In this document: in pieces, positions 24,801 to 36,800 of the stretch
Numbering within the stretch: the stretch's first letter is position 1
Layout of the letters: each line of letters opens with the position of its first letter
Assembly: GCF_036417845.1 (NCBI RefSeq)
Contig: NC_089981.1
Span: 25,192,001 to 25,256,000 of the forward strand
Direction: 5' to 3'
DNA length: 64,000 nucleotides
Source of the DNA: Apteryx mantelli
Taxonomy: Eukaryota; Chordata; Aves; Apterygiformes; Apterygidae
Position numbers and translations under genes: made by a program
Notes under the pieces: generated by a model
Seen by the model: only the letters and a program-made list of their open reading frames with translations
Databases searched by the model: none
Told to the model about the DNA's origin: nothing

Positions 24801-27800
24801 CTGGTTCCAAAAATTATTCTGTGGAAAAAAGGATACTACACAATCTTGTGACAGAAATCATTGACAAATCAAGATGGTAACAGCACAGTGGCAATATTGT
24901 CACATAAAAGACTTGTATACCAGGATAATTCAGGTTGGTAAAGGCTTGAAGTGAAGCAGTGGCTTTCTGAAAACAGGGAGTAATCTAATTTCAATCAAGC
25001 AAAGTATTTGCATCACGATTTTTGAAAGGCAATTGAAAATACTGAGTCAGCTTTTCTTCTCTTCATTTAACATCTATTTAGAGCTTAAAGCTACAAACAT
25101 CAGAGTAAAATTTTTGTCCTGACGTAATGCTGTCTGATAAATTGTTTCACCCAGTTAGGAGATAATATCATAACACCTTACCTGTTGCTTCTGTTATGAT
25201 GATTACTGCATAGGCTTTTAATGGTCCATTTACTGACTCAAAATCAGAGAATTCAACAGACAAGGAAATGTGACTGATTGCCTTGACTAAAGGACCTTTA
25301 GTAGGCGGAGGTGGGTCTATAAATAGAGAAATATTTGTTAGTACCTTAATAACAGGAAAAGAACAGTTTTCCAAACAAGACAATACTGTAATAATGACTC
25401 TGTTCACATAATGGATATTTATTTGTGCATGATATCATAATTTACATGAATGCAGTGTTTTATTCATAACCTGTATCCTGATAATGTACCGTAAATCAAA
25501 TTTGGTATTCTGCAATCCTGAGGCTAATTTTTTCATCCTATAAGTATCTTTCCATTCTCAGACCTTAATACTTACCAGTAATGCTTGTCCTGCACATTTT
25601 CTGCACTGGAGAGCTTTCCTTTGTATCTGCAAGAGTTGTAATACTAACGTTGTAGGTGGTGAAATAATTTAAAGATCCTATTCTGAAGGTTTCCTCTGAG
25701 TTTTCTCCTGTACAGCGTGAAATCTGTTGTTCTTTTTCCCATGTATCATTAAATATTTTAATTTTGAAGCCGGAGTTGTTACCAATAGGACATTTCCATT
25801 TGAGTGTTAGGTTAGACTCCTTGACCACTGGTTCACACTGAAATGAAGTCACTGAGGCAGGAACTGCAAAAATAAACAAGAAGAGCATAAGAATGAAGGA
25901 TGCAGTTGTTGTGTACAGAGAAGAGATTATAAATGGCCTCAAAGAGTAATTAAACAAGAGGAGCACTAGGATCACCGTACAAGTGGAAAGCAACTGGAGA
26001 ACAGCCCAATGCTGAAAAAGAAAATAACAGTGAATCCAAAGAAAATGTGTGGAAAACTTTGAAAAAGCAGCCACTGAAAACTCTAATATCTAGGAAACCA
26101 TTATCTGCATGTACCTGACTGCCCTACTCCAGTTGATTAGTCTCAGGAAAGTTCTAGTAAGAATTGTGGGAGTCACAACAGTGCTGAATCCCCCAGTACA
26201 ACATCAGATTTGCAATGGGATAACAGATTTTGCAATTTGGGATAATACCTCAATAAACACACCTGAAAAGACCTTTGGACCTTGAGAGATTCAGTTTCAA
26301 ACAAAGCTAGAGGACATTTCTTCACAGTCTTGCATAAACAGCTAAAAAGTTGACAATAAATGCAAGTAAAAACCCCCTTTATCTTGGCTTACTCAGATTC
26401 ATGACCATTATACCAACATTACAAAACAAAGATAATTTCAGTGTATTAACTGTATAGCAGCAGCCACCCTTAGAAGAGCAATGTCAGTTTGCGTAGGTGA
26501 CCTATAGGACATACTCTAAAAACTGAAACCTTATGATGGATTGAAAAAGATATTTAAAAAAGCTAACATAGCAATGATACCGAGAAGAAAGGTCCCTCTA
26601 AAGTCTTATAAAACTTGGCCTTCAAGATCAAAATTCTTACAATTTCTGCAGTTATAACACATAGCACAGGTATTGCCTCTCCTGATTCAGGAGTATTTGG
26701 TACTTCCAAATACAGGGGTAGAAAGACTCCTGGATTAAATTATTCTGTTATAAAAAGGGTATTATTTTAAGAAATTAAGGGAAGCAGTAGAACTGTATGC
26801 TGGAAGAAACAGATTTAGCTGAAAGATAGATGTGACTGTGACTTCTTTGTATTGAGGCTTATAGATACTCCTTCTCCTTCAAATATACTGACAGCTGCTA
26901 CTGCAAACAGTGTGAAATTATACAAGGTTCCAGGGCTTAAATCTGTAGCAACAGCTCTGGTGACAACGGCTGTCTAGTTTCTAGAGGGAAAATCATGACT
27001 TTGGGCTTTTATACTGTAGGCGTAGTTAGAAGTGTCACCTATGCCCCATGTTAAAATAAGACCAAGATACTTCACCCAGATGCAGAAAACTGGGTTGGTG
27101 TTTGTGAAAGGCAAAGTGAAGTTCAAGAATATTTGCTGAAAAAAAAACAGAAAATAAAGCAAGCAGAGGCAAAGTCACACTTTCACATTTTGCACAGATT
27201 GAGCATTATTTGTAGCCAAGCAACATTTTCACAAAACCAGGGTCTCACTTAAGTGGATCGATAATCCTGAGGCACCTCAGGAAAGCCCACAGAGAACCCT
27301 TAGGAAAAGGTTCACTTCACATCCATTAAAAAGACAAAAAGAAAGGGAAAGCACAAAATAGCATGTGTTCACAGTGAAAGGAAGACAGTCGCAATAGCTA
27401 GAAAGAGGAAAACAGGCGTTGCCAGGAGCACCTCAACATCTTCCTCTCTGCTCACAAGTTGAGCAGCGGAGGGTGGCTGAGAGCGCCCAGGACAGCGCTG
27501 CTCAAAGCCTGCTCTCCTCTTGAAGCCCAAATGCAGCAAGGGGCTGCAGAGCAACATACGCTTCTCCAGAAACATGGGCACAAGTGACTGCAACTTACTG
27601 GTATACAGGCTTAGGGGCACTCCCTCTCCTTCAGTCTGAGCATCAGCCGCCACTGCAAATACTGTGAACTTGTACAACATCCCAGGGTGTAAGTCGGCAA
27701 TTTCAGCTTCAGTGACATTAGACGTCAGGTTCCTATCGGCAGTACCATCACTTTTAATCTCTATCCTGTACGTGTAGGAGTTTGAAGCAGTGTCACTCAC

Positions 27801-33800: not shown

Positions 33801-36800
33801 TACTGGTATACAGGCTTATGGATACTCCCTCTCCTTCAGTCTGAGCATCAGCCGCCACTGCAAATACCGTGAACTTGTACAACATCCCAGGGTGCAAGTC
33901 AGCAATTTCAGCTTCAGTGACATTAGACGTCAGGTTCCTATCGGCAGTACCATCACTTTTAATCTCTATCCTGTACATGCAGGAGTTTGAAGCAGTGTCA
34001 CTCACTGTCCATGTTAAGTTGACATAAGTCTGATCAACATACACTGCCTTGAGATCAAGAACGGGGCTGGGCTCTGTGAAAGGCAAGACAAGAAGCTGTC
34101 AGGCACAAGAATATCTGCTGACAAGGAGAGGCAGAGACACCACAGGCACACCACTCGTTCGCTCTCTTCACATCAGTCATTATGCAGAGGCCAGGAGCGC
34201 CCCAACAGCATCGCCAGCCTGCTCTGTTGGAGGCTGTTGGCATCAACAGTCAGGTGAGGGTAAAAGGGAAGAAAAGGTGTCACGAGTGGGGTTCACCTCC
34301 CTTTGGCACTCTACAGCAGGAGCGCGGGGCCCTGGGCCAGCGCTCCCCAGGCTGCTCCTGAGGCCCAGAGAGGTGGGCAGGCAGCAGCAAAGTGTGGAGG
34401 GCAAGGGGGAGGACTTTTTTTTTTTTTTTTCTTTAAATCAAGGCTGTGTTTCCTCCTCACATTATCATCCCATGCTTAATGTCCCTGACTTTGTAGATAT
34501 GCCACAGTCTGCTCCATGACCAAAACATCAGCTCTCCAACAGTATTAAATTAGGATCCTCAGGGAGGCAGATAGGGCCTTTACTGCACAGCACTATATAG
34601 TCCACCAAAACCACTGGTGTGACACATGGGTGTCCTGGCTTGCGGACATTCCCTCTCCTTCAGTCTTATTATCACTTGCTAATGCAAATACTATGAACTT
34701 GTACAATGTCCTAGGGTTTAACTCAGTAATTTCAGCAGTGTTGGCATGGGATGTCGGGTTCCTAAGGGAGGTACCATCGCTTTCAATCTCTGTCCTATAC
34801 GTGTAAGAGTTTGAAGCAGTAACATTTGTTTTCCATGTGAAGTGGACTTTCTCAGAACTGACATACTCTGACGTGGGAGTAAGAACTAGGCTGGGCTCTG
34901 TGAAAGGTAAAGACAAGAATCTGTCAAGGTGCAAGAGTATTTTCTGACAAACAGATAAACACAACTGCAAAAGACCCCCACCTACCCAAAGAATAAGTAT
35001 CTCCGTATTCTTAGGACGATTATTATTTTAACCAAGCCACACTCATACATTGCACAATGCATGCTTTGATAGCTGCGGGGTCTACTGCTCTGTCTCCCAC
35101 TCCCCCTTCAGTTCAGCTCAAGGAGTTAAAGGGTCTAGGTGCAGCGGCAATGACCTCCATGACAGGCAGGCGTCAGCTTGCTTTACTTCATGCAGGGCAT
35201 CAAGAAAGACTTTGTATACAACCTGCTGTTATTTTTTTCCTAAACTGGCTGTCCCCAGGGGAATAATCTTTTTCCTGCAAGGTTCATACACCTCTCTCCT
35301 CTAGATACATGATACAGCATTATCTATACTAAACAGGTTACTTCTGCTGTGATCTGTCACATATGTATTTCAAATCTCTATGTCACAGTAGGTTTGAACT
35401 GTCACCAGCGTGGCCTAGGAAGGCCATAAAAAGTAGGGAAGAGAAGGGAACGCAAACCTTTAGAAAAGTCAAATGGTGATAAAATCATTTCAAGGCTAGG
35501 CTATAATCACAGCTTTAAACTACATTCCCAGTGAACTGTGCAGATACATTTCTCCAGCGGATTCTCTACTCCAGCCCAGCAACTGCATTCACTCCCTGCT
35601 ATGCTGTTTGCACTCTGGACTACAGTTTGGACCTAAAATGCTAACACAGTATAAAGGCACGGAACTCCCTGAAGATTCACCTCCCAGCCAAATTCCAAAT
35701 CACGTACTTGTTACATCGTTTTGAGCACTTATTGCCCCGTTGGATGGTGACACATCTCTTTTTGATCTTCCGCCTCTGTAGGTTTTGTTCCCACTTCTAG
35801 AGTTTACCGATAAATCATCATTACTACTGGTTCCTGCTGCTGCAGTTACATTTTTCGAGGTGCAATCCTGAATGCCTGAAAGACAAGAAAAGATACAAAG
35901 CTATAAATAACTTTACAGAACTCCTGGGTTTCCCATTTGCAAAAGCATAATCATTCATAGATATCATGCATAGAACTGCAGGCACTTTTGTTTTGCCAAT
36001 TCGCTTTTCTACAGAGATTTCACTGTACGGTTCCTGGTTTTACTGCTTTTAAGTGCTGTCAGACCATTTGACTTACGTTAAGAGATTGCCAGGTTATTTA
36101 GGTCATTCACTGACTCTACTCATATTCTGGATGAAGGCTATCATGAGCTGCTCTGTATTTCAGTGCAGTTTTGTTTGAAAAGAATTGAATGAACTTACAG
36201 TCTGTGCATTTTTTTCATGTACTACCAGAAGCTGGCTGCTTTACTTATCCTGGCAGAGCAATTTTGTCTGTTACCCTCAGCAGTGTATTCCCACAAGTAA
36301 GGAAGAGAGACAGTGTGCCTACAAAAAACAGCTTTATGTCGATACAGCGCAGCCTAAAGCATGGAGAGAGTTGACTCAGCCATTTCTTTGACATTACACA
36401 CAAAAATTACTATCTCAGTTGAAACTGTGATATTGTTAAACAAGCAACGTGGATAGCAAGCTTAAGAAAGGTGACTAGAAACGTTAGGATTCCCGGTCCT
36501 GGGAGCTGGGGGTGGAGCAAAACATTCTTTTCTTAGTTTATTCAAAATGGATATACACAAAGATTCATGAAAGCAAAAACAAAAAATACTATGGGCCAGA
36601 TTCACTCACAATCCAAAGGTTCTTTAGGACCAATTCTCACTTTACTTTTAAAGCAGCGTAAAATGAGAATTTGGCCCTCTCATTTTAGTTAGGCCCTAAA
36701 ATTTAAAGGCTAACTCATCTAAATTTGATGTTCAATATTTAGGTAGAACTAACCTGCAACAAGTTTCAGAAATTTTTGCCATATGAAAAGTTGTTATCTA

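Follow-up and report, generated by a model that had tools for sequence, protein, structure and literature searches.

The window analyzed here, a stretch of 64,000 nucleotides from the brown kiwi (Apteryx mantelli), carries on its minus strand the gene PTPRJ (CD148/DEP-1), in which FN3 exons are repeated in tandem as closely similar copies. How did this array arise, and what keeps its copies alike? The original prediction, made from the window alone, took the array to be both lineage-specific and recently active. Our analysis bears out the second part of this claim and contradicts the first: very probably, this is an old intragenic array of FN3 exons evolving in concert, by unequal crossing-over and gene conversion under purifying selection.

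The assignment of the gene to PTPRJ was confirmed, as the predicted ectodomain was identical (100% over 100%) to the A. mantelli protein phosphatase eta (PTPRJ), and PTP_tm and Y_phosphatase Pfam matches lie downstream. All features given here are on the minus strand. An N-terminal exon (35708–35875), rich in Ser, Thr and Asn and ending in phase 1, was read from its splice signals, is contained in the kiwi PTPRJ protein model and adjoins the array on its upstream side. The membrane-proximal FN3 exon (25576–25863, 288 bp) is diverged and lies outside the homogenized set. It is followed by the exon that opens the juxtamembrane PTP_tm region (25182–25316), with splice signals and also contained in the protein model, and by two exons matching PF18861 above its cut-off of 26.3 bits, at 22281–22494 (60 bits) and 22020–22138 (32.3 bits). 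Pieces of Y_phosphatase (PF00102), with positions converted from Pfam matches, span 14197–16898 (16764–16898, 15128–15265, and 14197–14346); these are the pieces located in the window, fewer than all the PTP exons. The protein model has the PTP signature once and the WPD loop SWPDHGVP, indicating a single catalytic PTP domain. The kiwi gene thus combines an FN3-only ectodomain, 1:1-phase exons, PTP_tm, a single PTP and orthology to PTPRJ, and R3 receptor phosphatases are described with an FN3-only ectodomain and mostly 1:1-phase FN3 exons in the sections of PMC5336234 dealing with them. Orthologs across amniotes were found via the membrane-proximal region. A structure search listed human PTPRJ FN3 chains among solved structures (7u08, 2dle, and 7u01), and an Rfam search of the window gave no match.

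In the one assembly analyzed, the array comprises eight intact FN3 exons, one donorless copy and one frameshifted copy, and splice sites, reading frames and Pfam results all agree with the composition first proposed. Between acceptor AG and donor GTAAG, each intact exon is exactly 270 bp long, with an open frame throughout and the symmetric 1-1 phase that had been predicted, which was read at all eight splice-site pairs. The fn3 Pfam scores of the eight, between 36.2 and 46.2 bits, are all above the cut-off of 25. Repeat 1 (33804–34073) is a mosaic, its 3′ end identical to the copy at 29761 and its remainder like those at 27599 and 31179. Repeat 2 (32969–33238) is identical to repeat 7 (28926–29195) at 270/270 positions, and repeat 5 (31179–31448) to repeat 8 (27599–27868) at 267/270. 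The last third of repeat 3 (32425–32694) is old, common to other palaeognaths and galliforms, and its first two thirds are of the kiwi type. Repeat 4 (31885–32154), like repeat 8, is an fn3 Pfam match, and in repeat 6 (29761–30030) the first ~75 bp are diverged and the remainder homogenized.

The two defective copies lie at the edges. At the 5′ edge, the donorless copy (34628–34897) has an intact acceptor and an open frame, but reads ATGTGT at the donor site, where the other copies read GTAAGT or GTAAGG; it scored 25 bits, at the Pfam cut-off, and is absent from the protein model. Its amino acid identity to the kiwi repeats is 51–57%, and its mean identity to repeats of the kiwi (54%), ostrich (55%), emu (56%) and eagle (54%) indicates that it has escaped homogenization. 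At the 3′ edge, the dead copy (26847–27098) has no donor, is broken by frameshifting indels and contains stops in every frame. Where it can be aligned, it is 67–73% like the live copies, and a Pfam search of its 52-aa open piece found no family.

Exons that lie in tandem and agree in length and phase could also form a Dscam-like array of mutually exclusive exons generating isoform diversity, and Cygnus olor does have isoforms with 10, 9 or 8 FN3 in total. However, all eight exons are present at once in the predicted kiwi protein, for which reason we rejected mutual exclusion, and the copies are too alike for distinct specificities; we give this reading almost no credence.

The claim that the array has been recently active was upheld by a 929-bp tract (28904–29832) identical to 32947–33875, which runs through an exon and an intron into the next exon, including the two exons identical at 270/270 positions, and has abrupt bounds. 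This is the longest identical run in one unit pair, and shuffling the same 87 mismatches 20000 times never gave a run longer than 225; the run is not due to chance. Together with the split repeat 3, it makes up the mosaic copies of the kiwi array. The introns repeat too, and in several pairs their identity (93–100%; kiwi only) is as high as that of the exons. In agreement with the uniform middle of the domain noted at the outset, of the 70 positions that vary among the eight exons, 8 fall in positions 98–204.

In whole-genome searches of kiwi DNA, the nine exon matches and eight intron-unit matches among the matches listed were all inside the array. A dispersed repeat was rejected, since among these matches the unit of exon and intron was found nowhere else, and a haplotig copy of the array was rejected on the same grounds. 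More generally, duplicated haplotype pieces, collapsed repeats or a faulty gene model could mimic such an array, the kiwi protein model is not independent of the assembly of the window, and a tenascin-like FN3 array is present twice in the kiwi genome (C32 and C196). Against an artifact of this kind, which we consider highly improbable, the PTPRJ-array copies all sit together on a single contig of 90.8 Mb, no other contig being among the matches listed, and the same pattern was observed in dozens of species, while mammalian proteins from the same sources lack it.

Within the exon, the Hudson–Kaplan minimum for the kiwi copies was six exchanges, a value (Rm) that assumes no recurrent mutation, and a PHI-like neighbor-incompatibility test for exchange inside the kiwi exons was not significant (324 of 5000 permutations were as low). 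The dN/dS of live kiwi exons was 0.29–0.62 in 26 of the 28 pairs, one of the others being without change and one without replacement. Such values below 1, and the conservation of the FN3 fold, would also be expected if strong purifying selection on each repeat kept the copies alike with no need of exchange. That explanation is scarcely tenable, however, because the introns are as alike as the exons and the silent sites are homogenized as well (dS 0–0.07 within groups of kiwi exons). Moreover, of the nine segments compared, residues 41–60 had the least identity between bird species (54–57%) but 97–100% among the kiwi copies; as this most variable segment is nearly invariant in the kiwi, its uniformity reflects homogenization and not constraint. 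On the homogenized introns and this contrast, constraint alone was rejected. GC content was 0.53 in the array introns, about 0.42 in the flanks and 0.385 in the last FN3 exon, a pattern that GC-biased conversion would give, elevated GC having other possible causes. The observations on introns and conversion tracts come from the kiwi alone; for all other species, the comparisons below use predicted proteins.

If the array were peculiar to the kiwi, other birds should not have it. Yet all 48 bird PTPRJ proteins analyzed have 6–9 array FN3 repeats, and crocodilians, turtles and squamates have repeats too, so an expansion restricted to the kiwi was rejected. These 48 proteins were chosen by us, one per species, from the best 120 listed, leaving out isoforms and many partial models, and the ranking by likeness to the kiwi array may favor similar arrays. 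The nearest neighbor was a repeat of the same species for 276 of the 330 bird repeats, and own-species repeats were the majority in 46 of the 48 species, the exceptions being Balearica and Lathamus. On the tree of bird repeats, the species label changed 90 times (mean of 200 shuffles 294, minimum 286) and the position label 253 times (shuffle mean 225). Of the 48 species, 16 were strictly monophyletic, another 13 became so once one repeat was removed, and 19 were not monophyletic either way. The copies are lineage-specific in sequence, but the presence of the array is not peculiar to one lineage.

The very high identity of some kiwi units and the species-specific repeats could likewise come from a fresh expansion, the kiwi having amplified one exon from few diverged ancestors and other birds having done so independently, once. 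We hold this to be improbable: with 6–9 repeats in every bird protein the number is not new, and the mosaic exons and repeat 3, with its old shared end and kiwi-type start, need overwriting in place and not amplification alone. The motif of third-type repeats gave 11 matches, of which one, from Phalacrocorax, was not third-type and was set aside. In all ten true cases, the last third was closer to the third-type repeats of other species, and in six the first two thirds were closer to repeats of the same species; in the four galliform cases, the first two thirds were not closer to their own species. Furthermore, congeners differ again, with 14/17 repeats in swans, 13/14 in ducks and 11/14 in Mauremys turtles closer to their own species, which argues for a continuing process. 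Orthologous repeats are kept between congeners in Agelaius (1/13 closer to own), Zonotrichia (4/14) and Athene (6/13).

Mean within-protein repeat identity was 87% in six birds, 72% in two crocodilians, 68% in seven turtles, 55% in 16 squamates and 26% in 19 mammals. The amniote listing was ranked by the membrane-proximal region, and is therefore free of bias toward array likeness, whereas that for squamates was ranked partly by the Alligator array; the best 120 were listed in each. The two crocodilians and seven turtles show own-species likeness as birds do, and squamates in part, with none of the 16 repeats of two Anolis closer to its own species. As stated in the original prediction for human PTPRJ, mammalian repeats are diverged, with within-protein means of 20–36% in the 19 mammals. 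In 14 of these, no repeat was closest to its own species, and the other five have young local duplications. Among 13 archelosaurs (90 repeats) the species label changed 22 times and the position label 70 times, and among 14 mammals (83 repeats) 74 and 20 times, respectively. FN3 pieces below 60–75 model positions were dropped, so that some mammalian, Pelodiscus and Emys repeats were missed and positions in those proteins may be shifted; the Mus model differs at its C-terminus (74% in the reference segment). One-to-one orthologous repeats, the pattern that was to count against the original prediction, thus exist in most mammals and the two Anolis, and not in most birds, crocodilians and turtles. 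The protein comparisons suggest that copies are continually overwritten by one another in birds, crocodilians, turtles and many lizards, and that they stay distinct in most of the mammals compared.

From the array, its phase and uniqueness, the mosaics, and the own-species likeness that birds, crocodilians and turtles show and most mammals sampled lack, we infer the following exchange mechanisms for concerted evolution. Units of exon and intron would be exchanged between positions, unequal crossing-over changing the copy number, and gene conversion would overwrite parts of exons, so that copies would remain alike within a species and diverge from one species to another. Because every exon has the 1-1 phase, gain, loss or skipping is neutral to the frame; purifying selection maintains the FN3 fold, and edge copies that lose splicing would drop out of exchange and then decay. 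The product would be a rod-like, N-glycosylated ectodomain of variable length (6–9 array domains in birds) built of interchangeable modules; CD148 is discussed as a size-excluded rod in part of PMC10815196.

Two regimes are thereby suggested for the CD148 ectodomain of amniotes, continual homogenization in birds, crocodilians, turtles and some squamates versus stable, position-specific repeats in most mammals sampled. Consequently, one-to-one orthology between chicken and mammalian repeats should not be assumed for PTPRJ, and in birds it would be misleading to test for selection per position or for ligand binding specific to a repeat. The regimes also offer a natural comparison for what sustains intragenic gene conversion, being off in Anolis and most mammals and on in most birds, with the splice-dead edge copies as an internal control. 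We found no report of such concerted evolution for PTPRJ in the CC-licensed literature, where PTPRJ with gene conversion gave no paper relevant by its title, tandem exon duplication of bird PTPRJ gave nothing relevant among the matches listed, and the avian supporting-cell antigen gave no papers.

The repeats of abalone VERL evolve in concert, and we know of no rapidly evolving partner of the PTPRJ repeats. Residues about 41–60 of the repeat presumably lie around C-C′ to E in the FN3 topology. VERL is described in PMC8830517 as an egg-coat receptor with ZP-N repeats, and PTPRJ resembles it in having a repeated extracellular module uniform within species and different between them; points of difference are the lack of a known partner of this kind and a whole-exon dN/dS that, across the live copies of the kiwi, is below 1. 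By this analogy, the array might be a sauropsid recognition module in an arms race, its fast-changing center spread through the rod by exchange so that a changing partner would meet a uniform, species-specific surface, and mammals would have fixed the array, each repeat with a role of its own; we regard this as unlikely, if worth stating.

Closer parallels are found among FN3 proteins. Mammalian PTPRJ, as covered in PMC5336234, shares with that of the kiwi the FN3-only ectodomain, the mostly 1:1-phase FN3 exons, PTP_tm and one PTP domain, but its FN3 repeats have diverged from one another and are orthologous position by position. In tenascin-W, the third FN3 domain is duplicated one to nine times depending on the species, according to the relevant part of PMC1578592, so that copies of one FN3 exon vary in number by species as in PTPRJ; there, however, a subset of repeats is duplicated, whereas in PTPRJ every repeat preceding the membrane-proximal FN3 is involved. 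The precedent for concerted evolution of FN3 exons is mammalian tenascin-X, as cited in the same part of PMC1578592. PTPRJ is hence very probably a further case of a known kind, in which FN3 exons of one gene are homogenized within species, introns included (in the kiwi), with the own-species closeness of the bird repeats (276/330), the intron homogenization and the mosaic copies all observed; it differs in that PTPRJ is a receptor phosphatase and not a matrix protein, and that the animals concerned are birds, crocodilians, turtles and a part of the squamates, as opposed to most mammals sampled.

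The ectodomain predicted from the window matched the predicted Apteryx mantelli PTPRJ protein, P0001, at 100% identity over 100%, although P0001 derives from the same assembly and cannot independently confirm the copy number. The gene is on the minus strand, in the order Ser/Thr/Asn-rich exon (35708–35875), FN3 array, diverged membrane-proximal FN3 exon (25576–25863), PTP_tm exons, and phosphatase domain. The original prediction of eight intact 270-bp phase 1-1 exons, a ninth copy without a donor (34628–34897), and a broken tenth (26847–27098) was borne out, and sequence comparison in the window showed that the introns repeat together with the exons. 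When the genome (1.504 Gb) was searched, all nine scored matches to an array exon and all eight scored matches to the intron unit fell inside the array, with none elsewhere among them. A PTPRJ intron also carries a short local tandem repeat (43767–44064), with shifted copies ~91%–96% identical.

Exons 28926 and 32969 (named by their lower coordinate) are identical. The surrounding units, 28752–30057 and 32795–34100, differ by 87 mismatches in total, with a mismatch-free run of 929 bases (28904–29832) and, directly after it, a cluster of 28 mismatches in 29833–30013; in 20,000 shuffles of those 87 mismatches, the longest mismatch-free run reached a maximum of 225. Exon 33804 is a mosaic, with a 3′ end of the exon 29761 type and a remainder of the 27599/31179 type. 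The Hudson-Kaplan minimum for the kiwi copies was at least six exchanges within the 270 exon bases, and a neighbor-order permutation test for exchange within the exons was not significant (324/5000).

In 330 repeats cut from 48 bird proteins (six to nine per protein), the closest match came from the same species for 276. Such repeats were the majority in 46 of the 48 species, the exceptions being Balearica and Lathamus; in Excalfactoria, the mean best match was slightly higher to other species than to its own. On a FastTree tree of these repeats, the species label changed 90 times (possible minimum, 47; 200 shuffles, 286–305) compared with 253 changes of the position label (shuffles, 212–235). 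Sixteen species were strictly monophyletic, a further 13 became so once one repeat was dropped, and 19 were not.

Residues 41–60 hardly differ among the eight kiwi copies (100% and 97% alike) but are the segment with the lowest likeness between bird species (54%–57%). Constraint does not explain this uniformity, because it would also have given likeness between species. The third-type FN3 repeat (32425–32694 in kiwi) is divided: in kiwi, ostrich, emu, Eudromia, Tinamus, and Balearica, its last third is closer to its counterparts elsewhere and its first two thirds to the same species, weakly so in Tinamus (69 vs. 66). In the four galliforms, the last third followed this pattern, but the first two thirds were not closer to their own species.

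In one common set of amniotes, mean within-protein repeat identity was 87% in six birds, 72% in two crocodilians, 68% in seven turtles, 55% in 16 squamates, and 26% in 19 mammals, and the closest repeat was of the same species for 45/46, 9/12, 35/48, 56/118, and 18/124 repeats, respectively. Position and species labels changed 20 and 74 times on a tree of 14 mammals, and 70 and 22 times on one of 13 birds, crocodilians, and turtles. Squamates are mixed: two Anolis retain orthologous repeats (0/16 closer to their own species), and in Eublepharis and Paroedura 6/7 and 7/9 repeats are closest to their own. All 18 mammalian exceptions belong to elephant, marmot, ground squirrel, rabbit, and pika, which carry young local duplications of PTPRJ FN3 repeats. 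Elephant P0210 has 11 array repeats, some pairs up to 99% identical; marmot and ground squirrel (P0154, P0207) have the first repeat as a four-copy run; and rabbit and pika (P0219, P0216) have repeat pairs at 91% and 83%. In the turtle Mauremys reevesii (P0128), two repeat types follow each other in the order A-B-A-B-A-B, and copies of the same type are nearly or fully identical. This pattern points to a two-exon exchange unit; the arrangement differs in its congener (P0130).

When close relatives were compared, repeats with a nearer match in their own species numbered 14/17 in two swans, 13/14 in two ducks, 11/14 in two Mauremys, 10/13 in Emys/Chrysemys, 6/13 in Athene, 4/14 in Zonotrichia, and 1/13 in Agelaius; the rate of homogenization is therefore lineage-dependent, fast in some and slow in others. 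Four mammal pairs gave 0/46, and marmot/ground squirrel 5/18.

Both dead copies are terminal in the array, in positions where exchange would be expected to be least effective. The donorless copy is no longer part of the homogenization process, because it is as like the repeats of ostrich (mean identity 55%), emu (56%), and eagle (54%) as those of kiwi (54%). The GC content of the array introns (0.530; flanks, ~0.42; non-array FN3 exon, 0.385) is compatible with GC-biased gene conversion. Among live kiwi exons, dN/dS was 0.29–0.62 in 26 of the 28 pairs (those having both kinds of change), indicating that the FN3 fold is under purifying selection.

The CD148 ectodomain is reported to contribute to ligand binding and to size-based exclusion from close contacts (PMC10815196). 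Kiwi repeats carry three to five N-glycosylation sequons each, 27 across the array. Sauropsid repeats may be interchangeable glycosylated spacers whose number sets the rod length, and position-specific roles would belong mainly to mammals. Predicted Cygnus olor isoforms (P0019, P0043, P0047, P0048, P0063, P0071, P0073) vary by whole FN3 repeats, totaling 10, 9, or 8, as frame-neutral exon skipping would give.

A second homogenized FN3 array was seen in the kiwi genome (C32:1660001–1679800; 20 FN3 pieces in 19.8 kb, mean identity 90%), of a type that we take to resemble tenascin-X. Many of its matches recur at equal scores, reversed, on another contig (C196:43144–60950), probably a duplicate of this locus. 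By title and abstract opening, no report of homogenized PTPRJ repeats was recognized in the literature searched, which mostly excluded subscription journals. According to a review of the R3 phosphatases (PMC5336234), their FN3 exons are of 1:1 phase and the B-C loop codes of R3 receptors, PTPRH excepted, are conserved between species; the word “concerted” is absent from its text. The precedent for the PTPRJ array is mammalian tenascin-X, in which exons and introns evolve in concert (Hughes 1999, as cited in PMC1578592).
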